From Tubiluchus corallicola (Eukaryota > Priapulida > Priapulimorpha > Priapulimorphida > Tubiluchidae): DNA of 64,000 nt. Location of the stretch: positions 3,015,001 to 3,079,000 of the forward strand of contig JAQGDQ010000002.1 in the NCBI GenBank assembly GCA_030141605.1. The letters are read 5' to 3'. The position numbers were made by a program, and so were the translations under genes. Of the stretch, positions 6,787-62,253 are shown one piece after another. The notes beneath the pieces were generated by a model. The model did not search any database, was not told the DNA's origin, and was given only the letters and a program-made list of their open reading frames with translations. Each line of letters opens with the position of its first letter. Within the stretch, counting starts at the first letter, position 1.

Positions 6787-7269
6787 ATGATGGCTTTTTT
6801 GCAAACCTCCAGATTGTTCTACCATTCTGTGAGAGCATTATGTCGAGAATCAAATAGGGCACTCTGTGTGAGTAAAAAAACATTAGTTTCAAAAAATGTC
6901 TTGACAACAGCAGTGAGGGAGATTTCAACAACTCCTGTTTTTCATGACATTGTCACAATACAAGATGAGGACGACTTTAAAAAACGAGTTCTGAAGAACT
7001 CTAAACCAGTACTAGTTGACTTCTATGCAGATTGGTGTGGCCCTTGCAAAATTCTCGGACCTCGTATAGAAAAAATTGCCAGCGAAAATGAAGATAAAAT
7101 GACATTGGCTAAAGTGAATGTGGATGATCATATGGAAATTGCAATGGAATATGGTGTATCATCTGTGCCTACAGTTTATGCTATTAAGGATGGTGCTGTT
7201 AAGGACAAATTTATTGGCGTTCTAGATGAAGATAATTTGTCAAGTTTTGTGGCAAAGTTGGTGCATTAG
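6787..7269 (+). CDS. TXN2: Mitochondrial thioredoxin (thioredoxin-2)
   Basis: 160-residue thioredoxin with an N-terminal extension. Residues 1 to about 50 are rich in Arg, Ser and hydrophobics, and basic (transit peptide). The fold follows, with the redox centre WCGPCK (W83, C84, C87) and the cis-proline in SSVPT (P128). Thioredoxin reduces protein disulphides such as those of peroxiredoxin-3, and is recharged by thioredoxin reductase in the matrix. Length is close to vertebrate TXN2 (about 166). An in-frame TGA at 6763-6765 precedes the first ATG, so the start is well supported; a second ATG follows at 6790. A splice acceptor (TTTAG, ending 6750) just upstream suggests a spliced 5' UTR. The coding part is uninterrupted, unlike other genes here, and shows no decay. 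Confidence 0.95.
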   Translation: MMAFLQTSRLFYHSVRALCRESNRALCVSKKTLVSKNVLTTAVREISTTPVFHDIVTIQDEDDFKKRVLKNSKPVLVDFYADWCGPCKILGPRIEKIASENEDKMTLAKVNVDDHMEIAMEYGVSSVPTVYAIKDGAVKDKFIGVLDEDNLSSFVAKLVH

Positions 7270-10396: not shown

Positions 10397-13300
10397 TTAC
10401 TTTACTCGGTAAAGCATTTTTCTTTGCATACGATGTTGCAGATCGCCCCGACGAAGCATAAAATGAAGTACTCTGTAAACTGCTTGTTCTGGATATTTCT
10501 AGAATGAAAAAAGTGCAATTATTCAAAAAAAACATGAATCATAATGGAAGAACAAAGCATTGTAATAGTTCACAAAACTGAATGTAAGACTTGTGCATTG
10601 GAAAAATAAAAGAAAGTGTTAAGCTGTACTTGTTAAATACTGCCATCCCCAAGTTCTTTCGTTAAAAGGAAAATAGGACAACTTTTAGCGCAAAAGTAGA
10701 TTTTATAACCTATTTCGAGGAACTGTAATATCCGTGGTTATTTTTACTTTTAACCATTAGCCAAGGACTACTATACTACAGGACGTGCACGCTGCAATCT
10801 CTGATTCGGCTAGCGGAGGCGATCAATACTTGCATGAACGTAATCTATAAATAGTGCGCTTTAGAGAGTAGTGATCTTGGAAATTAAAGAATGGGCGAAT
10901 CGGTAGATTGCGAGTATTATTTTTCATTTAATTGGTTCTTTACATTACGGGAGAAAAGTACCAATTGTTTATTTTATGTATCAAAGGAAATTAGTGTTCA
11001 TTTTTACTTCTTAAATAGCGCACTACTTTAGGCGTAAGTGTGTTTTACCGGAAGTAGTGCTTTGTCATTGTTAATGTGTCTGCTTGTGTTTGTTTCTTTG
11101 TGGATTATTTTCAAAATTTCTGGTGGATTTTATACATCTGTGCTCAGCAGCATGCCTAACAAGTGTGGTGTTGTTAAATGCAAAGGTAACTATGACACGC
11201 CACGGAGAACAAGTGTCGTGTGTTCACACTGCCAAGAGATCATGTAGAAAAACAGAAATGGCTAAGTGTTCTTCCCCCACGCGAAGGCTTTGTTGTTGAT
11301 CCAACGAAATTTTTCATTTGCGAAAAGCATTGGCCATCGGATACTCAAATGGTCAAAATTCCAGGTGGTCACACCAGGCCAGTGGATCCACCCAGTATTT
11401 TCAACGTTCCAACATCATGCTTGCCCACTCCAAAGCCACCACCTCGCCCTCCAAAAACTGAGGACCAGCAGCTGAATTATTTCTTTAAAAAGGATAAAAT
11501 AACTTCTCTCAATGAATTCACTCCTGAGAAAGACCTGCATAAGACGTATCAGAACCTCATTATATCTCGCACACAAGACAAATTTGTGTGCATGTTCATG
11601 GAAGAGGACCACAGTCAATGTTTCACAAGTTCATATAACATTATATGTCAATTATTGTTCACAATAAGCCTACCTTGTGTTCCCCTCTTACTCTGTATGC
11701 TTTCAAAAACGTGATCAGTGTGCCATTAAGTAAAATCCTCAGTCCGAACAATGGGCTGTCCTCTTACTCACAATTTTTCGCGGTTGTGAATTCTGTTGTC
11801 AACCACATTCATCATGTTGATGATATTGTCAACAAAGTGACAAAGTCTCTTGAACTTGAACTAGCTCAAAATCGAGAACAATCTCCTAGTGTTAATGCTA
11901 AAGCCAAGAAGCTCAAATTTCTAACACGACAGCTTCGACTATTATGTGATAAGACTTTCACAGTGTCTGATTATTGCTTTGCAATAGAGTCATTTCCCCA
12001 TTGCAATTACGAACAACTGAGTGACTTTTTAGTGTTACCCAGCAAAAGAAAGCTGCAGTCAGTTATTTCATCGACAGATATTGACAAGGTGCTAGGTAAA
12101 ACATTTCAGAAAGTAAAAAGCTCTGAGCAGAAACACTGTATGCTATTGGTGGATGAAGTGAAAATACGCCCAACAGTGGCTTTTTCAGGGGGTGTGCTAA
12201 ATGGCATGGCAAAAATGAGCCAGACAGTAAAGCTACATCAATGCTATGTGTGATGGCTAAATGTCTACATGGTGGCCCCAGCGTGATGATATCAGTGACC
12301 CCCGTTCACAAGCTGACTGCTGCATATCAATTCTCTGTCGTGAAGGAGGCTGCTACAATGGTTGAGAATTCGGGAGGAACTGTTTTAGGGTCCATGACGG
12401 ACAACCACAAGATCAACCAACAATACTGCAAATTGTTTACCAGACGAACAGACTGGGAGGCTGAACATCCCCTGGAAAATACACGAGTGTGGTTCCTGTT
12501 GTATGATACCGTCCACATTCTGAAATGTATCAGGAACAACTGGATCACGGAGAAATGTCAGAGATTATCGTTTGACAAGAAAACTGTTGGCTCATTTGCT
12601 GAAGTTAAAAGTCTTTACAAAGCTGAGAAAGACAATGTGCTCAAGTCAACACCTTTGACATATTCTGCAGTCTTCCCATTGAAACTTCAGCTCCAGAATG
12701 TGCAACATGTGCTGAGGGTGTTCAACGATCGTGTTGTTGCATCGCTGAGACTTCGAGGAGCCCAGGACACTGCAGAATTCATTCAGCAAGTGCTACGCTG
12801 GTGGAATGTGGTAAATGTTTCTGCCAGAGGTCAAGACACGAGGATGAGAGACCCTGATCGATCTGCTCAACAAGATACATCTGATACTCTTCAGTCGTTG
12901 TTGACTCTGTTTAAGCAAACCGAATCAGGACACGGACCAAATAGAATTGAATGCCTGACACATGATACGCGAAAAGCTTTGATTCAGACCACGGAGGGAC
13001 TCCTCGCAATCTGTAGGCACTTGTTTTCTGTTGGATTTCACTACGTATTATTGCGTGAACTTCAGAGTGACAGAATAGAGGGTGAGTTCTCAGTTTACAG
13101 GCAGTCAAGGGGGGCCAATGCATTCATGCAAGCTGGAGATGTCTGTTCAGCATTCAAGCGGAGACTGGCGCGTTTCTCTGCATCATTCCTGGAGTTTGTG
13201 GACACAGACACATCATCCGAAAGCCAGTTGCACACATGCAATGGGATTGATTTCGAGGATGCCAAAATTATGGAGATTTGTGTTGATGAGACTCTTTCCA

Positions 13301-16300
13301 AAACTGAACTGAACGCGTGTGCATATGTCGCAGGTTGGTTGGAGAGTAAGTGCCAAAATGACATTTCTTTTCCCGAGGATGAGCCTCTCCTTTCTGAGGA
13401 AATGAAAATTTTCATTGAAGAAGTGTCTAGGGGAGGTCTTACAGTGCCCCACACATTCACGTTCGAATTCGTAACAACTGGCTTGTGTTTTGTGAAGAAG
13501 TCAACTCACACAGTCTGCTGCCGCAACAAGCTCATGAACATCCTCTCCATAATCAATGCCTATTTTGATTTTGGACAATTTTCAAGAAATGCTCTGAGAC
13601 GCCTGGCAAAAGTACTGCTGCGTGGACTACACAATTTGGAGAAGGATCACCAGCAGAACTCAGCCCTTTACCAGACCTCCATTAAGAAGGCGCGACTAGC
13701 CGACTAATTGTCGCAAACATCTCTGCAAAATGGTGAGTGCAATAATTTCATGTATTCTAATTTACACAGAGGAACCTATGAATGAGTTTATATAGTCCTG
13801 ACAAAATGGTGCAGTCTGTTTATTCTCTATAGAAAGTGACAGGTAATCTTCGGGACACAATGAGTTGCAGATATGGTGTGTTTTTTTTTGGGGGGGGGAT
13901 ATCATAGGTACCACTGTTTTTAAATTACTAGATGACTGAGGAATATGTTCTACGTGTATTGTGGCATGCTATAGGTCACCATGGGGGGTAAATATGTCCA
14001 CATTATTAGCACTAAATGTTAAAAATAGATCGCCTCCGCTAGCCAAATCAGAGATTTCAGCGTGCCCGTCCTGTAGTATAGTAGTCCTTGCCATTAGCTC
14101 AAAACAGTCCCAAGCACAGGTCATTCTGAGGCATGGTTTAAATTTGTGTATATTTTTTGTAAATTGCACTAAAGTCTTTCAACCGAAATGAGGAACTTAG
14201 GAATTAATTCGGCTTCAGTAAGCATAATAAGTGGCCCTGCTTACGAGGGACAAAAAACAAAAAGATTTGTACCTGTCTGAGGAAGTCCTGCACAATGCTG
14301 TGCTCAGATACTTGTGAACCTATAGCAAACCGGCGTTTTAGCTGCTTCTCTATTCGATTTAACATTTCCTGATCTTCTTGTGATGTAAATCCTTCTGCTC
14401 CTGAAACAAGTCATAAACAATGATTACAAAAGGACAAAATTTCCGCATGGGTAAAATACTACATTCTACAGTCAAACCTCGTTATGCCCTCAGCCTCACT
14501 ATAACCACAACTTTTGCCCTGTCCCAATTTGCATAATATATTAAGTATAGAGAATACTGTCAACCTCACTTACCACCATACGCCAACTTCACCATACACC
14601 ATACGCATATTCTGCTGCGCCAAAAACCTATTGTACATAATAAATCTACCCCATTATAATGCCAGCCAAGATAAAGTACAATGAATTGCTGTTCAAAAAC
14701 AGCCATTGGATTGTAGAAAACAGTCATTTGTAAAAACAATTATGTATTTTAATTAAGGTTTTAGGTCTTGTTGCAAGTGACTGTATGAAAGTGAATGTTG
14801 AGGTTTTCAACAAGGAACATGCATTTTAAGAGAGCAAGAGATGCGTAGCTAAGCCTCAGTGGGGGGGGGGGGGGGGGTCGCATGGCTGCATATTTCTCTT
14901 ATCAGCAGTAGCTAATCATTTCTCTTATCAGCTAATTAACCAGCATTTCACAAGATTGCTTTGTCACGTTGTGTTACGTAAAAGTTTTATAATGTACCAT
15001 CACAGAACTACACCTGCACTGTTAATGCAGCAAAAATATTCAGTATATACCACATGTATTGTCGAGGTATAACAAAATTATACTATTTATCACATATTAA
15101 AATGAACTACGAAGCAAAATAGAGGCTACACAGCACAATGGCTTTGATATTTAATGAACCTCGTCTTTGCTGCCAACCTCGCTATACCACCATATTTAGT
15201 GGTGTTCCAAGCCTGGCGTTATAACGAGGTTTGACTGTATTACAACAATGAGAACAATTTAATTGTAATCAATGTCCTCTGAGCCGTAAAGACAACTAAA
15301 TTGAAAGTACTGCAAATATCATTTTCCGGTGGTCACCTGTCAATTTAATGACCAGGTTAGCACTGCATAATTTCATTTGCTAGCATACACCATGACCACT
15401 TGGCTATTCAACTTTCCCACTGCATGCCGTTCATGCAAAGGATAAATTCGGCAAGATTTGAAAAACATAATTTCATTATTACATAATAATTTCTTCAACC
15501 TAATGTAATTTTTTTTAGTAATTATGTAAACCTAGATAGACTCCATACAGTGTTAAATTTCAGCATCCTATCATAAATCTGTGAGACAAAGTTGAAAAAA
15601 AATTGCAAAAACAACAGCACAAAATGGAACAAATAGTGTTAAATAAAACTGAATTGAACATAATTATCCAGTCGAAGAAGTGGAGATGCAACAAATGTGG
15701 GAATAGCTATTAAATCCTGTGTACCTTGAATACACAGTATCTTGACAAGATGACAAACATCTGATACTCAACACAGCTATTGCATAATAAACTGACACTA
15801 CTTGAAATAAATTCAGACCAATCTAGCATAATTTATTCATAACACTTTTGTTAGAAGCACCTTGTCTACAGAAAATACATATAATCTAGCATAATAGTAC
15901 TTAAACAAATATATCTGTAGATGTAATAAATGCCACACAATTAAGTACCCGAAAGATCTCCTGACATAGCAGCATCTAGCGTGGAAACTTGAAACAATCT
16001 AAGTGCTTCGTCCACATGAACTTCAGTGGCAAATGGTTGTAGCTGCATTTTAGCCAATGACTCTGAGATTCTTACTATAGCTTCTAATTGCCTGTAACAT
16101 AAAATTTTTGCTTTACATTTTACTAAGTGTATTAGTAACTGAATTTCCTTACTTATGTTTAAGTCAGTAGTTCATTCTAATTCGTAAGACAATCTTTCTA
16201 GCACAACAACAAGGACAAACATCTAATGCCTATACTAACTTATTTATTAGCAAAGCAAATTACAAATGCTCAACTATGCAAAACATAAACTAAAATAAAA

Positions 16301-19300: not shown

Positions 19301-22300
19301 ATACTGCATGCAGGCCTATAATTAGCATGTGTGTAGGACGGCGTAGCGGACAGAGCAATAATGAGAAAATTAACTCTCAGTTAACCTAACGTTATTAATG
19401 TGCTTCTAACTAAATTGTTATTTACAAAAATTTATCACACACAAGTTTTAAGAAAATAATACACTGAAGCTACCAAACATTTTTTTTACCTAATTCTAAT
19501 TCATATTGAAAATGATTACATGCGAACTGCAATATTCACTGCAAAAAAATTACTTGTCCGATTTTGCAGGGGGGGGGGGGCGCCCCCCTAGTTCCGCCCC
19601 TGATCATACGCCCGTCACATCTATTGTAGACATTGGGCAGGCAGAATTCTAAAATAAAAGAAATCTGCCCTCAGACAGGTAAACGCAGGAGTAATCCAGC
19701 AAAAAAACTAGACACTGCTATGCCAGTGGCTTGTAAACCTGTCATTACAACTGTAGGAACACAGGAAATCTTCCTCATATTTGGTTCACAATAGCAATGG
19801 CACTATACATAATACACACCCTCCTATTTCCAAAAAATACTATATGTCATGTAAATAGACCAAAAACTGTCAACCAATTCATTGCTAAACAAATTATTAG
19901 TCAGCTCACTTTCCATTTACAAGTACTGTAAAATTAAGGTTGAGCTGATTACATTACAGAAAATAAAGCTAAAAGCAAAATTTAATAGCGAAACTCCAAA
20001 TTCAACACTGTTATAACTAATTTGAATCACGTGAAGAAGCTAACAGCTACTAGGCTGCAAAATGTAAAAACTATAAAATGCAAATGCTTAACTAATTAAT
20101 TTTAAGACTGCATTATTTGTAAGTGTGTATAGTAGCATTTGAATATTTTTTCTCCTTTGAATATAACTTCATCATTCATTACCGATTCAGATTTTCTTTT
20201 ACAAAAGTGATGGAAAAAACATATAAAGCTAACCTTTGCAATAGAAATGGTCTGTTGTTCCATAGCTTCGTGAATTGCAACACGATCATCTTCTCTCATT
20301 TTATCAAATTCATCAATGCACACGCATCCACCATCGGCCAATACCATAGCACCTCCTTCCATAATAAAGTTACGTGATACAGGGTCGCGATTTACAGATG
20401 CTGTTAGCCCAGCTGCACTACTGCCCTTGCCAGATGTGTACACTCCAACTGGAGAAACTCGCTCGACAAACTTTAACAATTGACTCTTTGCTGTTCCTGG
20501 ATCACCAAGTAATAAAAGGTTGACGTCTCCTCGACGAGTGAGTCCATCAGGAAGGCGTTTCCTTGAACCACCAAACAGAAGGCAGGCTATGGCCTTCTTT
20601 ATATTTAGACTACCATATATGGATGGAGCAATGCTTCGAGCAATCATCTCATAAATACCTGAAAACAATTTCGACTTTTATCTAAAAAGGTGCTAAAGTT
20701 TAGGTTTTGCAGTCATGCTGTAAGAACAAATCGAACGAAGTGTTGGAGTTGTTTATTTGTCATGCAGCATATATTAGGCACCTGACAAAGCACGAATTAA
20801 GAAAAATGGCTATAATTCAATTTTTGTAAATCCAATGCTGCCTGAATCCCTATAGATGACATTGTTTTAAGACTATGCATGCAAACTACTATTTAAATAC
20901 AGTAAAGTATGCATAACTCAAACAGAGTGCCATGGTTTGAGTGCAATAACAAAATCAAATATTGCATCATGTCATATCAGCAACAGTCTATGAATTTCAA
21001 TGGATTCTTAAAACATTTGCACACACAACACAACAGTTGCTGTCTGCATGCCAATAGTTGATATTGTTTTAAGACTACATGCACACACTACTATCCAAAT
21101 ACAGTAAACTATGTATAACTAAAAATGGTTATTATTCAATTTTTGTAAATCCAATGCTGCTTGAATCCCAATAGATGACATTGTTTTAAAACAACGCACA
21201 AACACACAGATTACTATCCAAGTAGCGAAATATGCATAACTCAAACACCTCGGGACTGGAAAATTTGTTCGAGTTATGTAAAGGTACGAGTTAAACAGTG
21301 ATTCTGAGAAAACAAGATTGAGTCGCTTATCAATTAATGTTAGACAGTACACTGGGAACATTACAGCCTGTGAAAATGATAAACTGAGCTTTTAATCAAA
21401 TATCAAACAACAATTTTTATGAATAATCAAAAATAAAATGATTGGTCCACCTATATCGTTTGAGATAGGCGAGGTAATTTCAGTCAGATTGTTAAGAATT
21501 GTACCGGGAATTTGGTTCGAGTTACGCGATGTTTGGCAAAATGAAAAACGAAAAGGAAAATCCGTTCTGCGAGACCTGTTTGAGAGACGCAAGAATTTGA
21601 GTAATACCGGTTCGAGTTATACGTAATAAGTTATAAGTACTGGAAAATGTGAACACCCAGTTGGAAATGCCTCATTTGGTAACGTATTGCGACAAAAGGT
21701 CATTCTGCTAGTGCTTAGCTTTAAGAAGCAAACTTCATTAATAATTTAGTTCAAACACTATTTGCAGCTCACAGAAGACAGCAGTTTGCATGAGGATTTC
21801 CATATTACTTGCAGGAACTACAAAGATTTCATAAAAACTTACTTTGTAGTTGTAAAGGCCCTTTGCATATACAGTTCCATTGCGTGTATTTCGAGGACAT
21901 TTGTGTAAGTTTGTGCATTTAGAATAAACAGTTGCAAGTTAATTATTACAAAATTTTTGTGATCATTGGCTGTTTTTGTAATTTTGTGATTTTCTTTACA
22001 AAAATATCACATACCACAGCTTGTGTACAATAACAAAATCAAATATTGCATGTCAATTATTAACAACAGTCTATCAATTTGAATTTCAATGTATTCCTAA
22101 AACATTTGCCCAACACGACAATTGCACATAGCAGAAATGCCTCTATTCTCGACACTCTAGGTGTGAAACTCAAGTTAGGAAATAAATTTCGTCTTTTTTT
22201 AATCTTCGACCTTTTAATGGCCTAGAAACAGAGTGCCTGGTACCATATGTTGTTGCCACACTAATTTGTGTAAATGAATATGTGTTAATATAGAGGCTTT

Positions 22301-53293: not shown

Positions 53294-56177
53294 GCTTATC
53301 GAATTGATTAAAAATAATACAAATTACCATATGCAGCCATTGTTTTAAGAAAATAAGAATACGAAATAAGTAGCACTCTGTAATGCTTCCATTTTTGTCA
53401 CTGGGTAGTCCATATGCTTTCATAAGCACCATTGCATCCATACATAAATTATTATTACACTATTAAACGTTAAAGTCAAATTTCTTCCATCCTGTACCCT
53501 GAAATATTATTGCACCGACGATATTAGATACAGAAAATTACTACAAATGCAACGATATTAACAATCAAAGATTTTTCCGGCGCAAAATGTTTTACGTTGA
53601 TAATAATGTAATTTGGAAGTACAGTATAAAAAACAAATCGCATTGTGATTACAATGGCTTATTTTATATTTTTCCAAAAAATTGTATCAGTCAAAGCACA
53701 ATTAACGGAATTAGGTGCATATGGCTTTTTTCTATTTTTTGTGTGGCATAGCCTATAAAGCCATAATTTATCTGGGATCATTCGCTTACATAGCACCTGA
53801 GCCCAGATAAATCAGAGCCATTACGCACCTGGCACTGCATGCACTGAGTAGCATAATTATATTGCTTACTATTTGGCTTCACTCCTTTTGCATCGCCTTT
53901 GAGTAGATCATTTCTCAAAATATAATGTGACCCCAAAGCTAACAGGCATAATTAATTTTCCGGAATACAGCTCATCGATTCATTTGCAGATATTGTCAGT
54001 AGATTCGGTTTCTCGGCGTTGAAATGAAGCCAAGTTTTTATCAGAGAGCAAACATAATTATGCTTGACATAAAAACATTGATCGACCAATTGAATAGAGG
54101 AGTAAATCTAGCTACGCGGCATGTCACGAGAAGGCACGCGAACAGAATAAGTGAAAACGAAAGTAGAAGATTAGATACACTAGTGAATACGTGTCACGTC
54201 CAGATACTTATCCTCATAGAGGGATAGGATGGGGGGGGGGGATAGTTGACAGTGCGAAGTGTGAAACTTTCACTTTTAAGTCCCAGTTATTTACCGACCG
54301 AAAGCACTGTATAACACGAAGCTACACCTACTTATTATTAACATTTACATTACATATACAAGCAAAGACAGGGAGGTCGATTTAAGGAGCTAGCTGGATT
54401 CCTTTTCTGTATTTAACAACAGAATTAGGCCTATTCCTAAGCTTCATTGGCGGTGCTCAGTATCCGCGGGGGAATTTTACAAAACTAATCATAACGTTTT
54501 TCAGGCGTTGGTTTGTTCCCCCATAGTTTCCTACTCCCACTCAGGGGTGTAGTAGAGGGGTAACGTCGGATGACTGAGTTACCTTATCATCTGCTTAATA
54601 CAATTACCACCTCTGTTATCTAACGGTATTGCGTTACATATTTAAAAAAGATCCTTATCTGCAAGATAAGTGCAGTTAAGTACATGATATCTGCAGTTAC
54701 CCCACTTATATTACTACACCCATGATTCCACTCGGTGCACTCATGCAGATGTTAACAAGCATATTTTTCAAATTCCAAGTTGTCCTTGAGATCGATACAG
54801 AAATTAATTTATGAAACATGAATTGCAAATAATGCAAATGTATATCATGTGTGTCACCTTGGCCATAATATCTACAAACCTTTAACTCGGAGTATTTATA
54901 TCAGAAATCAACCTAGTTTGTGATATCACTTTTTGCCCGTTACCGTATCTCTGGTTTATGCCTTATAAACACCATCTGTTTCTTGCCATTTTTTACCTTC
55001 CCGCAATGTTTAAACTCAGCACACTGTGTTAATTTTCTATTCGTCATTTTAGATTAAAATACACGAGCGGTTTTACCCATTTATTACAAAATTATAAGCT
55101 GCCCACCCCTTTATCGACAATAGATTAGTCCTGTAGAAGCCACGAGAACAGCGCCTGGCACAGTAGTCACGTGACATAGTAGATACTAAATCGGTTGATC
55201 AGTGAAAGTCGGTGAAAGTGCGAATTGGGCGCATGCGTCAGCTGTTCCCAATAGATGCCTGGTACTAATACAAGAATAAGGAGAATATAGATTTGTATCC
55301 TAGGTGAAACTGTCCTTAACAAATGTAGGGCGCCATGAAAGAGCGGTTCGAGTGATGTTATGAGAAGCATTCAGATTTTTTGTGCCGTGGAGAACTCAGT
55401 TAGTGCGTGGCGTTAGTTTTTGTGTGAAAAGCATTGTTAAGTATAGCGCTTTTTGATACAGACCTATTCGAGATAAATTACACTATTTAGCAAAGAGTTT
55501 TATTTGTTTTAATCAGTTATTCTTATAATAAAGGATGAGATTTTAAATAAAATCATTTTAAGTAAGGGTATAAAATTATAGTTTCCCCTTTGTTGTCTGC
55601 AGATGGTGCTGAGTGATTTGCAGCATTTACTACACCAAGGTGTGTGGATAACTAATATTGCCTTCTATAGCACTGCTGTTGAGCAAGTAGTTATAGAGTA
55701 TCTTTATATTAAAAATACTTTAAAACAAAGATTTTTACTTATTCTGTGGGCACAATTAATGAATAATCGGTTTATAAAGCTATTTAATACGCATCTTTTC
55801 AACAAGTGACTTCTACTCATCCTATATTTATCACCAATTTGAAACGATAATAAATTCTTAGAGTTTTAGCAGTGCAAACCAGTTGTCAGCAACAGATTAA
55901 ATGGAATTGAATACAAGAAAGAAGAAAGCGGGTGGTGTTGAAATAGAGTTGGAATAAATAAGTGCAACCAGGAACTGATACATATCTGTCGCCTCTATGC
56001 ATACGACTCAGTGTTTGAAACAATTTTATGGACGAAACGGCATTCGGCAATGGAACTCAAAAGACGTCGCACGTACGAGTGTATCAATCATTGAATTTGA
56101 AGAAGTTTCGAGCCTAACAGCATGCTAAGCATGTTTCCACCACTGTGTCAACTCCTGGAACAACTTAATGCAATGTG
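53294..56177. other. Intergenic region upstream of the LRR gene
   Basis: No coding exon recognised. Near 53766-53817 there is a short inverted pair (TTATCTGGG / CCCAGATAA). A 10-G run or longer lies near 54231-54240. A splice-like TCTGCAG precedes the open frame at 55603-55809, which has no recognisable domain. The last few hundred bases probably hold the LRR gene's 5' UTR; an in-frame TAA (56166-56168) precedes its ATG. Confidence 0.4.
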
Positions 56178-58674
56178 ATGACTAACATCAGCTCGGTACA
56201 GATCTGCGAGTCAGAACTGACCGACAAAGACACAGAGGACATCATAGATGTGTTGAACCAGAACACTCTGCAGATATTGTCATTGCGAGATAGTCATGTC
56301 AATCTGGAACAGTTCAAGAGGTTAGCAAGAGCAGCAGGGTGCTGCAGTTCCATTAGAGAGCTGTACTTTAGTACAGGAATAGTAACTGACATTCAAAGAC
56401 TCAGGCTTTTGTGCACATGTCTTACAGAAAATGCATCTGTTAAAGTTTTAATGTAAGTTTTTTTTTGAAAATTTTCTTATTCTCAGGTGGCACAAAAATG
56501 CGCCAAACTTTTGATCACAAAATTATAAGGTTCACAATACGGAATCAAATGAAAATTGCCAACGATGTTACAGCACTTACGTATAAATGCATAAAAATTC
56601 CAAAAACACAGAAGTTTTAAAACAAGTCAAAAAAATAAATACTGAAAAAAAACGTTTGTGTGTCACTATTGCTAAAATTTACAGCAAGTGCTCTACGTGT
56701 CCACGATTTTCATTGCAAACTAGATGAAGGCATTTCTTCCAACACCTGACACAGTTTCTCACATAAGGTGTATTTGATCCCAGTACTCAGCAAGTTTTTG
56801 TTTTGGTTCCTCTGCATCAAATGTATTTCTGCAGGCATCGTACACTTTTTCTCTAAGGGAATGCCAAATACCACTATCTGCAGGGTTAAATTCCACTCTT
56901 TTCTAGGGAACAAATCTCTATCAGTGCTTTATTTTGTGTGCAAGAGAATTTTAAATTTCACAAGACATAGTTCAAATGAAAATTGGATTTCTGTGCAATA
57001 CTGCACACGGGCTTGGGTTGTACCGTTAGTTGATATTTGTGAATGGCCAGGATGGTACCTTGGGGATGCCAGTTATAGAAATGAATACACGTGCTTGATC
57101 GAGATGCACACACACTGCCTATTTCACTAAACAGCCGGGATGGTAATTACTTCATCATCAAAACATCGACCAGTGACTGTTCTGCAGTTTATGATTAGCT
57201 GGCATTGTTCAGGCATTTAGTTTTTTAACATACGACAGCTTTCCGGTCATATCTTGAAAACCATTAAACTATGCGCATGTAAGTTTTGCAGCCAAAAGTT
57301 AATGTATTTTAATATCATGCTGTGAAATTTCAATTTTGTATGGCACTTGCAAATAATATCATAGTAGTCTGAACTTCAGCACATTTTTTCTGTGCCACCC
57401 AATATTAATACTCTCCATGATACCTTCCAGAGTATGTTTTTAATTGCCTTTAGCTTTTAACTTTTTCATGCTAATACCAATAGAAAAACGTTATGTAATA
57501 TTAGTAAATGTTAATTTTGAAGCCTTAAACTGCTTCGATTTTTGCCCCATCAGACACCCAAACATAGTGTCAACTATTGCGTTTAATGGACAGCTGATTA
57601 GATCTAGGCAAATCAAGATTGAGGTGCTCCTAGAACAATACTCTAAAATTGATTAGTTGACAGACAAATTTAGAAAACTCATTAAATCACAAGTTTCTTG
57701 CTACCTGTTCATATGCAAATTTTTTATGTTCAGTTATCTGTGGCAATAAACTGGCCAGCTTTCAATGTCCATGTATTTTCAAGGGCAAGTGCGTCAAAAT
57801 AGAAAAGTTACATTGCAACTCATGCAAACAGTGCATCAACTTAACTTTTATTGAACACTCTAGACTTGAACATCATCCACTGAGTGAAGGGGAGGCTCTG
57901 TTACTTTTCGATGCTCTGAAGATACACCCACCATTGACTTCGCTTTCACTTATGGATTGTGACCTGACTGATACAGCCATTGCTGGAATACTGAACACAC
58001 TCAGATGGAGAAATTGTCTTCCTGGTACGTACATGCATTAAAAATATGACCTATATTTGAAAATGCTTAGAGGACAACCATGAAATGTTTCAAATAGTTT
58101 CAAAGTCAGAAAAGTTAAACACATCGAATACTTACTGTTAAGCTCATTCGTATTGTAGCTTTGTCTTATACATGAACAACATTCTTTTTTATTCGTAATA
58201 AGGATTCTGTTTCAGGATTGGTGAAACTAAATCTGTGCAAAAATCCACGCATCACTCAGCAGGGATGGGAACACCTGGCAACTGGAATCTCATGTGGGAC
58301 AGATCTCCAGAAGTTAAACATATCCAACAACAATATTGGCGATCGTGGTGCCATTGCCTTGTGTGTGGCAATTGCAGGAAACAGAACACTGGAGTACATT
58401 GCTGTAGAAAGCAGTTGCATATCAGAAAAAGGTGGAAAGGTGAGAAAAATGTCTTTAATTTTGGGTACATGGAAATATCATTTTAATTGTGAAAATAGAA
58501 AGCCTTCTGAATGACATACGAGTAATAATTTTTATGTATTTTCAGGCATTCTTGAAACTATTGGAACTTTTTCCATACCGGCTTCGGGAGTTGAGGCTGG
58601 CTGACAACCATATCGGTAAGATGCTGATGATGCAGATAAGTTCCAATTTATTGGCGCCACCTATTGCCAAGTAA
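56178..58674 (+). CDS. Leucine-rich-repeat protein (ribonuclease-inhibitor-like LRRs), 4 exons
   Basis: Exons 56178-56452, 57864-58024, 58216-58439 and 58546-58674, in phase with GT-AG junctions, give 262 aa. Repeats of the RI/NLRC type, about 28 residues each, are visible: LQILSLRDSHV, LTSLSLMDCDLTD, LVKLNLCKNPRIT, LQKLNISNNNIGDRG, LEYIAVESSCISE, LRELRLADNHIG. Such solenoids bind proteins; no NACHT, CARD, kinase or other partner domain is present. The ATG is preceded in frame by TAA. A GTAAG at 58616 could instead splice to a further exon not found here; reading through gives a stop at 58672-58674 with AATAAA just after. Family identity unknown. Confidence 0.75.
56486..57400 (-). mobile_element. 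Degenerate mariner-like transposon
   Basis: Ends GGTGGCACAAAAATGCGCC and the complement of the right end (GGGTGGCACAGAAAAAATGT) are inverted. On the minus strand, scattered frames recall a mariner-type transposase C-terminus: a W/F-GI-L-EKxxx block, then CNENRGHVEHLL-stop (stop at 56679-56681). Many frame breaks; inactive. It occupies most of LRR intron 1. A similar end word, GGCACAAAAACGTGCC, occurs alone near 31718. Confidence 0.65.
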
Positions 58675-59731: not shown

Positions 59732-59810
59732 GATTTCTTTTCACTCATAATAATTCAGATCTGCTTTCTCAAACATTTCAAAAACAATCGTCATTAGTCG
59801 TGAGGAAATC
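59732..59810 (-). promoter_or_regulatory. Candidate SECIS element in the SELENON 3' UTR
   Basis: On the minus strand: lower stem GATTTC...GAAATC plus TCAC...GTGA; then AUGA (59794-59791) opposite UGAA (59757-59754), forming the non-canonical quartet. A helix GAUUGUUUUU / GAAAGC-A-GAUC of 10 pairs with one bulged A follows. Unpaired AA in the apical loop begins 12 nt after AUGA. Spacing and order match eukaryotic SECIS elements, which recruit SBP2 and the Sec elongation factor. About 690 nt after the SELENON stop codon, on the same strand. Confidence 0.75.
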
Positions 59811-60497: not shown

Positions 60498-62253
60498 CTA
60501 CGGGTACTGTTCTGACGACACATTTGCTTTAGCTAGGGCTTCCTTGAGAAATGAGAGATAAGCTGCAGTGACTGGGTCTTGAAATCTAAAAACAAGAAAA
60601 AACATTTAAAGACCAGTTAGTACATATAGACTTACATGGTATTTAAGGCACTAAAACTAGAATTTTAACATGAAAATAATAATTTGTGTAAATGATAAGG
60701 ATCAAGTGTCTCTTGCTGATCAATGCTGTACAGCTCAAATACATTGTTCAAGTTCACATCAAAAAGACTTCAGGCAAAGCACACTTGAAAAAATGAGCAA
60801 TACTTTTTAAGCTAGGAGAAGACCATTAATATAGCTCAGTACATTTCTCTGGAAAGTTTGAATCATTTTACAGCTAGTCCCAGAAAACAACAAACAGTCA
60901 CTTGTCAGATAGTCTGATGATTTACTTGGTTAAGCTACATTAATGGGCTGATACTTCTCAAGCTCACAGCTTACATTAGTTACCTGAAAGTCGCAACTAT
61001 CTATAAAAATGACAAACCAATTTTTGAAGTATCATTTAATTATTTATGTCTTTTGTAAAGACAACTGAAAGAAAAAACTTAGCTATTTACTAATGCAACT
61101 ATACAATTGATGATTAAATAAAAGACCAAAACCATAAAAAAAGTGATGTCACTGCCCTCAAGTGGTGAAGCCACCTCTCCATGAGAATAATACTGAGCCA
61201 TAACTATGCGGCATTAACTTCTACCCTGACTTACAAATTCTCACAACTGCGCAAGTTTGTGCTTTCACTAGTCTGTACATTCCGATTTTAAATACCATAA
61301 TTAAATTTATGCACTCAGCATCACTTCTCATTAAAGATAAAAATAATATTCAGAATAATGAAACAGAAATAGGAAATATGTCTCAGTGGATAAGAAAGGA
61401 AGTGATCAGAATTTACTAACATAGTGAGAAAACTGCTATTCATTTCTGCTTCATCCAGCAAGTCATTAGCATTTATGTGATGCAAAACAGTTCCATTAGG
61501 TGTCAGCACTATAGTTTCTACAGGAAACTTGTATGCCCTGAGCATGGCTGCTGCCACTACACTGATAGCAGAAGTATTATCTTCACGGATGTAAGTCTGA
61601 AAATACAAAGCAATGTTGTATTATATAAAACAAAATGGATAACAAGATCCAAAGTGAAATGAAACTAAAAGCTGGTAAACTTTTTAAAAAAATGCAATGC
61701 AGACTTTAGACATACCCGTAAATGATAACACTCTTGTGTTATCATTTACACAAGAAAGTTGAAATTTGAAAAAAAAATTAGAAGCAAAATTAAAGTTAAA
61801 TAAGTAGATTTAGATGTAGTAGACAATACTTATAAAAATTAGGCTAAAGACTGAATACAAATAAGCTTAAAGAACTGCACCAGAAATATGAGTGTTTCAA
61901 TGCTAGTTTAGAATAGAATTTAATTTAACAATTTAAAAGCGAACGTGTTGTACAAATGCTTTCTACTTCCGAGTAAAAATGAACCCATTGGCTATAGATA
62001 TTAGATAGTTCTACATTTTTAAGCTTAAAACACACATTAAACAAACCTCCAGTTCAGCAACTAATGACCATGAGCTGACAAATGATTCTTTTAGAATGTT
62101 AATTACGGGCGGACTAGCGAGAGCAACATCACGCAAAGTCCGCCCACTTCCTCAGCATGACTGGTCATCTAGCGCACCCCACAACAACACGAAGTGAATG
62201 AGTTGATGGCTAGATACATGTTCGAGAGCTTCTTCTAATGAATAGTATTTAAT
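60498..62253 (-). CDS. SELENON: Selenoprotein N, 3' part, with in-frame UGA (Sec)
   Basis: Three in-phase exons: 62047-62253, 61421-61596, 60498-60585 (stop TAG). Exon 1 of this set reads [22 protein letters not shown], then [18 protein letters not shown]. Next come [20 protein letters not shown] and [17 protein letters not shown]. This matches the C-terminal half of selenoprotein N, an ER-membrane redox protein that acts on SERCA2 and calcium handling; its loss causes SEPN1 myopathy in humans. The UGA (62154-62152) sits in the family's Ser-Cys-Sec-Gly redox site and must be read as selenocysteine. A stem-loop follows it and a SECIS candidate lies in the 3' UTR. The upstream exons (N-terminal, EF-hand-bearing part) are beyond the right edge or unrecognised. 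Confidence 0.95.
62107..62145 (-). promoter_or_regulatory. Sec-redefinition stem-loop downstream of the UGA
   Basis: In the SELENON transcript, GGGCGGACT (62145-62137) pairs perfectly with AGTCCGCCC (62115-62107), 9 bp extendable by two G-U pairs, with a 21-nt loop holding an inner GCG/CGC. It begins 6 nt after the UGA. SELENON is the family in which such an element (SRE) was described, where it promotes UGA readthrough. Confidence 0.85.
62152..62154 (-). other. Selenocysteine codon (UGA) of SELENON
   Basis: TCA TGC TGA GGA in frame; conserved protein sequence continues for 35 codons after it in the same exon. Confidence 0.93.

Follow-up and report, generated by a model that had tools for sequence, protein, structure and literature searches.

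In eukaryotes, the selenocysteine insertion sequence (SECIS) recruits SBP2, eEFSec and the selenocysteine (Sec) tRNA; the bacterial SECIS (bSECIS) is read by SelB. Human SELENON (SEPN1) carries a selenocysteine redefinition element (SRE), reportedly characterized by Howard et al. (2005, 2007; cited in PMC8704476 and PMC4561486). We analyzed a stretch of 64,000 nucleotides (the window; contig JAQGDQ010000002.1, positions 3,015,001 to 3,079,000) and found on its minus strand a SELENON-type gene in which an in-frame UGA is followed, after six bases, by a perfect stem. We consider it very likely that this is an intact protostome SELENON gene, that its UGA, at codon 484, is decoded as Sec through a SECIS in the 3' untranslated region (UTR), and that the hairpin raises recoding. 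Decoding would follow the usual eukaryotic route, with the 3' UTR SECIS recruiting SBP2, eEFSec and Sec-tRNA, and the hairpin six nucleotides past the UGA would disfavor termination and boost recoding, by analogy with the human element. Production of the mRNA, insertion of Sec and stimulation of that insertion by the hairpin are steps that we infer.

The SRE is described in PMC8704476, PMC3541580 and PMC12839072, and our hairpin lies directly downstream of the Sec UGA, in the position of the published SELENON element (PMC8704476, PMC3541580). In human SELENON the UGA is c.1384-1386, and the changes c.1396C>T and c.1397G>A give Arg466Trp and Arg466Gln, respectively (PMC8967691); the human Sec is numbered 458 in one place and 462 in another (PMC12839072). 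Because only CGG becomes a Trp codon when its first base changes from C to T, the human codon at Sec+4 can be deduced to be CGG (PMC8967691), and Sec+4 is CGG here as well. Human changes affecting G463, R466 and R469 fall within the SRE and reduce Sec insertion (PMC3541580); our gene has Gly, Arg and Arg at the corresponding positions (G485, R488 and R491). The two elements differ at Sec+7, where Arg is encoded by CGT here and by CGG in human, if R469W is a single C>T change (PMC3541580), and in their hosts, ours being a protostome, judging by its Hox-type genes. Human changes at the hairpin site are reported to cause myopathy (PMC3541580).

Stem-loops adjoining an in-frame UGA are also known as the SRE of SPS genes and as the hymenopteran readthrough element (HRE), although these belong to another gene and the HRE works in genes without a SECIS (PMC4561486). 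The bSECIS is likewise a coding-sequence hairpin directly after a UGA (PMC8704476), whereas in our gene a SECIS-like element sits in what we presume to be the 3' UTR; that SRE and bSECIS are homologous is a published hypothesis (PMC4561486). SELENON was listed in 2012 in sponge, sea anemone, limpet, annelid and amphioxus (PMC3473315), and a tick selN has been reported in a paper that mentions the SelN stem-loop in general terms (PMC3840058). A literature search for a SELENON SRE in arthropods gave no title on the subject among the matches listed, and we do not claim that such an element is unreported. Gene and redefinition element are already known, and ours is a well-preserved further example rather than a new mechanism. 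What one genome adds is a protostome SELENON that combines its UGA with a hairpin beside it and a SECIS-like element, together with portions of the Sec machinery. The case is useful for dating the redefinition element, and its Sec exon is a clear example of one that standard gene callers may truncate or miss.

The hairpin downstream of the in-frame UGA

Three features make up the Sec site:

62152..62154, minus strand: in-frame TGA, predicted Sec, residue 484 of 606, in the motif SCUG (frame reading)
62146..62151, minus strand: spacer GGAAGT, exactly six bases from the TGA to the stem
62107..62145, minus strand: hairpin with a 9-bp stem and a 21-base loop containing a small inner stem (predicted fold)

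The redox-site frame reads D-Q-S-C-UGA-G-S-G-R-T, with the TGA at 62154-62152, and the stem joins the 5' arm GGGCGGACT (62145-62137) to the 3' arm AGTCCGCCC (62115-62107) in nine perfect pairs out of nine. The initial annotation had proposed a Sec-coding UGA in a SELENON-type gene, followed at six nucleotides by a perfect 9-bp stem, all within 62107-62154 and at the site of the published SRE, and had suggested folding the downstream stretch as a check. Its coordinates and spacing were correct, the strand being minus, and the TGA is indeed in frame in SCUG. Counted from the G of the TGA, the first 74 nt fold at -25.6 kcal/mol (z -3.46), and none of 200 dinucleotide shuffles was equally stable.

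Stems of this kind are rare in the surrounding DNA. Counting at 9-mer resolution and allowing loops of 3-30 bases, we found 75 perfect inverted repeats in 83.9 kb (the window and a further 19.9 kb of its contig); none but the hairpin reaches seven G-C pairs. Combinations of a TGA and a 9-mer stem with a spacer of 3-12 bases number 18 in the same 83.9 kb, the other 17 having at most four G-C pairs, and the exact two-arm pattern with a spacer of 10-30 bases occurs at a single place in the 343.5 Mb assembly.

A conserved protein sequence could yield such a stem as a by-product, with no role for the RNA: G-R-T and S-P-P, encoded by the arms, belong to the redox site, a region under protein constraint. 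We consider this very improbable. When codons were drawn from the gene's own pool, observed ones included, nine pairs (G-U allowed) formed in just 17 of 200,000 draws. The 48 nt after the UGA fold at -24.9 kcal/mol, against a mean of -10.8 in whole-gene synonymous permutations (z -5.2), and not one of 5000 permutations was equally stable, the closest reaching -24.1 kcal/mol. Moreover, GGG and CGG are each used once in the whole coding sequence, and both lie within the 5' arm of the hairpin. The tests point to selection at the RNA level, and the protein sequence does not explain the stem; the codon test is a strong sign, from a single sequence, of selection on RNA as well as protein. What these tests speak to is selection, not the function of the hairpin. 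In sliding windows over the coding sequence (n=590), the four lowest energies all overlap the Sec hairpin; by z-score, the two lowest windows overlap it, and those ranked third and fourth fall in a different hairpin, at codons 395-396.

That second strong fold, whose arms are CGCGCCAT and ATGGCGTG, spans codons 393-412 in coding exon 6 (extended window coordinates 64446-64387). It reaches -20.1 kcal/mol, and the window at codon 396 has a z of -4.7 against codon permutations.

The SELENON-type gene

The rebuilt gene has nine coding exons and eight GT-AG introns with matching phases, and encodes 606 residues with the TGA as the sole internal stop. Exon limits were set manually, guided by open frames, splice signals and known family sequence, and the gene model is a prediction. 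Coordinates above 64000 lie beyond the window, in adjoining contig sequence. The first ATG is taken as the predicted start, and there may be an additional 5' non-coding exon.

69385-68897, minus strand: coding exon 1 (GT-AG, open frame)
68620-68498, minus strand: coding exon 2 (GT-AG, open frame)
68171-67959, minus strand: coding exon 3 (GT-AG, open frame)
66267-66143, minus strand: coding exon 4 (GT-AG, open frame)
64827-64676, minus strand: coding exon 5 (GT-AG, open frame)
64520-64273, minus strand: coding exon 6 (GT-AG, open frame)
62253-62047, minus strand: coding exon 7, the Sec exon, 207 nt, phase 0 on both sides (AG acceptor, GT donor)
61596-61421, minus strand: coding exon 8 (GT-AG, open frame)
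60585-60498, minus strand: coding exon 9, with stop TAG at 60500-60498 (open frame)

The last 331 residues of the protein, used as a query against the assembly, gave seven matches, six of which are exons 4-9 of this gene; the seventh is weak (E 0.006, 24% identity) and contains an internal TAA. At the sensitivity of that search the gene looks single copy. Contamination appears an unlikely source for it, because the gene has eight introns on a 3.1 Mb contig.

Along its length the protein is presumably closely similar to human SELENON. SCUG lies at residues 482-485, with the TGA as 484. By eye, the translation shows a hydrophobic stretch around residues 85-106, ahead of an EF-hand-like match to PF13202 (residues 133-151, E 2.8e-4); at 20.7 bits this match is weak, its cut-off being 25.9. 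SELENON is described in print as having a type II membrane layout, an EF-hand and the motif SCUG (PMC12839072, PMC10650576, PMC8967691). The name selenoprotein N rests on these published features and on known family sequence, because no searched library named the protein. Against the PDB, the whole protein matched one calbindin chain (E 0.45), and the Sec exon gave no match at E <= 1.

No credible relative was found in the viral contigs and prokaryote genomes searched. In the viral contigs, the C-terminal 157 residues gave 30 pattern matches, none of them a relative; Sec was written as Cys in this query, which left the Sec-site pattern blind to UGA genes and the other five patterns able to match. 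The viral contigs likewise contained no match to a degenerate DNA pattern of the Sec site. In the prokaryote genomes, a 109-residue query found one locus, in a Devosia bin (L007, 34 pattern matches), which we judged to be chance because the matching frame is one among several overlapping mechanical open reading frames on both strands.

SECIS-like element and selenocysteine machinery

About 700 bases past the stop lies an element that would supply the SECIS:

59732..59810, minus strand: SECIS-like element in the presumed 3' UTR (Rfam RF00031 and motif scan; outer helix limits from the fold)

Its parts are AUGA from 59794, an apical AAA, UGA at 59757-59755 and an outer helix. Helix II has about 10 bp and helix I four pairs in a row, and AUGA ... 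AA ... UGA stand in register with the pairing of both. Rfam SECIS_1 (RF00031) aligned to it end to end, over 59804-59744, at 18.8 bits, with an E of 2.7 over 4227 families, or by division about 6e-4 for RF00031 alone in 2.1 kb. In a motif scan of the 1.8 kb after the stop, under rules set post hoc, AUGA 59794 was the sole site that satisfied the rules; shuffles of the 1.8 kb gave any hit in 14 of 1000 cases and an equally good one in five of 1000. An earlier scan had found the same AUGA at 59794 with a different 3' partner, and the second gave the Rfam register. The 101-nt fold around the element has a z of -2.9, with two of 200 shuffles equally stable. We call the element SECIS-like, as its motif order is good and its score weak. 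Rfam run over the whole window at gathering scores gave no match, and RF00031 gave none over the whole assembly at E <= 0.001, in a search that is uninformative, having detected none of 14 controls.

The assembly also holds parts of the Sec machinery. It contains 13 matches to tRNA-Sec, two of them above the Rfam cut-off, and the one on contig C1915 has no encoded CCA and is presumably of animal type, judged against known sequence. SepSecS is represented by two stretches on contig C615. Contig C2218 carries a multi-exon SEPHS, each exon falling below the whole-protein cut-off, and an upstream frame there reads KGUGCKVPQE with its TGA in frame (L039, 4302-4374, minus strand). The 70 nt after this UGA fold at -29.1 kcal/mol (z -2.53; four of 200 shuffles equally stable), with a long stem beginning seven bases after the UGA, an SRE-like hairpin in the same genome. 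SREs have been reported in UGA-containing eukaryotic SPS genes (PMC4561486). For the Sep15/SelM family, one exon was seen in the assembly, and the Sec site was not seen in it.

The second tRNA-Sec, on contig C151, has its terminal CCA encoded and is probably of bacterial origin, and selD-like matches occur in long uninterrupted frames on contigs C493, C1799, C120 and C1339. Together they suggest bacterial DNA in the assembly, from a symbiont or a contaminant.

Several points weigh against a Sec-decoding SELENON. Searches of the whole protein against Pfam, NCBIfam and PDB gave no SELENON match, and the EF-hand match is weak, lying below its curated cut-off. The SECIS match, at 18.8 bits, falls short of the 35 that RF00031 has as its gathering score; at this site a snoRNA family does slightly better (20.6 bits, gathering score 50), which we have taken as chance; and the rules of the SECIS scan were set after the Rfam hit was known. 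In the minimum-energy fold the AUGA is base-paired to an AU-rich stretch farther downstream and the quartet is therefore not open, under an energy model that does not score the quartet. The SepSecS match covers only the first 70 of 389 positions. The gene and its Sec decoding are predictions from the genome sequence. Finally, skipping the Sec exon, with its 207 nt and phase 0 on both sides, would preserve the frame. This last point is what favors taking the UGA as a true stop, with the downstream exons left from a decayed gene or spliced without the Sec exon. However, the frame stays open in the exons past the UGA, their junctions are GT-AG, the final stop is followed by a SECIS-like element and the host carries parts of the Sec machinery, and we regard a true stop as very improbable. 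It is scarcely credible that the hairpin makes ribosomes read through the UGA independently of a SECIS, inserting some other amino acid, as proposed for hymenopteran SPS1. The human SELENON element does allow a degree of Sec-independent readthrough when no SECIS is present (PMC4561486), but our gene has a SECIS-like element, its host has portions of the Sec machinery, and SCUG fits Sec.

Decoding of the UGA as Sec, aided by the hairpin, is the reading that we prefer. A bolder proposal, which we hold to be unlikely, is that the SELENON hairpin is ancient, with selection on the RNA predating the protostome/deuterostome split and extending down to the CGG codon; taken with the SEPHS hairpin, this would fit the published hypothesis that redefinition elements of eukaryotes derive from bSECIS hairpins.

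Host placement and other features of the window

The initial annotation had guessed at an early-branching animal as host, and this guess is not supported, the Ubx/abd-A-type and Abd-B-type Hox genes being nearest to fly-type proteins in the PDB. A homeobox scan scored 150 of 186 candidates and gave at least 118 matches; 24 of the 28 stretches examined have a homeodomain frame and four do not. Three Antp-class genes stand in a row on contig C1217, a trio that we take to resemble Scr, ftz and Antp; these names, like Dfd, lab, pb and Hox3 for others, are tentative. The PDB comparison covered the Abd-B-like and Ubx/abd-A-like genes. For the Ubx/abd-A-type gene (69 residues) the best PDB match was an Ultrabithorax chain (117.2 bits), and among homeodomain-only chains abdominal-A scored 110.4 bits and Ultrabithorax 107.1. 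The Abd-B-type homeodomain scored 106.5 bits with abdominal-B against 94.9 with Hox-C9. From these similarities the Hox-type genes say protostome, and probably an arthropod or something near it, by comparison with a PDB that samples few animals. A search for COX1 in the assembly gave no match.

Elsewhere in the window, an open frame at 6787-7269 on the plus strand encodes a thioredoxin (PF00085, E 3.8e-29), possibly with a mitochondrial leader. Three overlapping open frames lie at 11220-13707 on the plus strand, the third with a weak match to PF21787 below its cut-off and the first with no match; we assume that they resemble a THAP/P-element-type transposase. The most GC-rich 2-kb bin of the window is 12001-14000 (0.439). 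An MCM helicase exon lies at 20102-20668 on the minus strand (PF00493, E 1.1e-65), and exons that by eye look leucine-rich-repeat-like occupy about 56000-58650 on the plus strand, convergent with SELENON.
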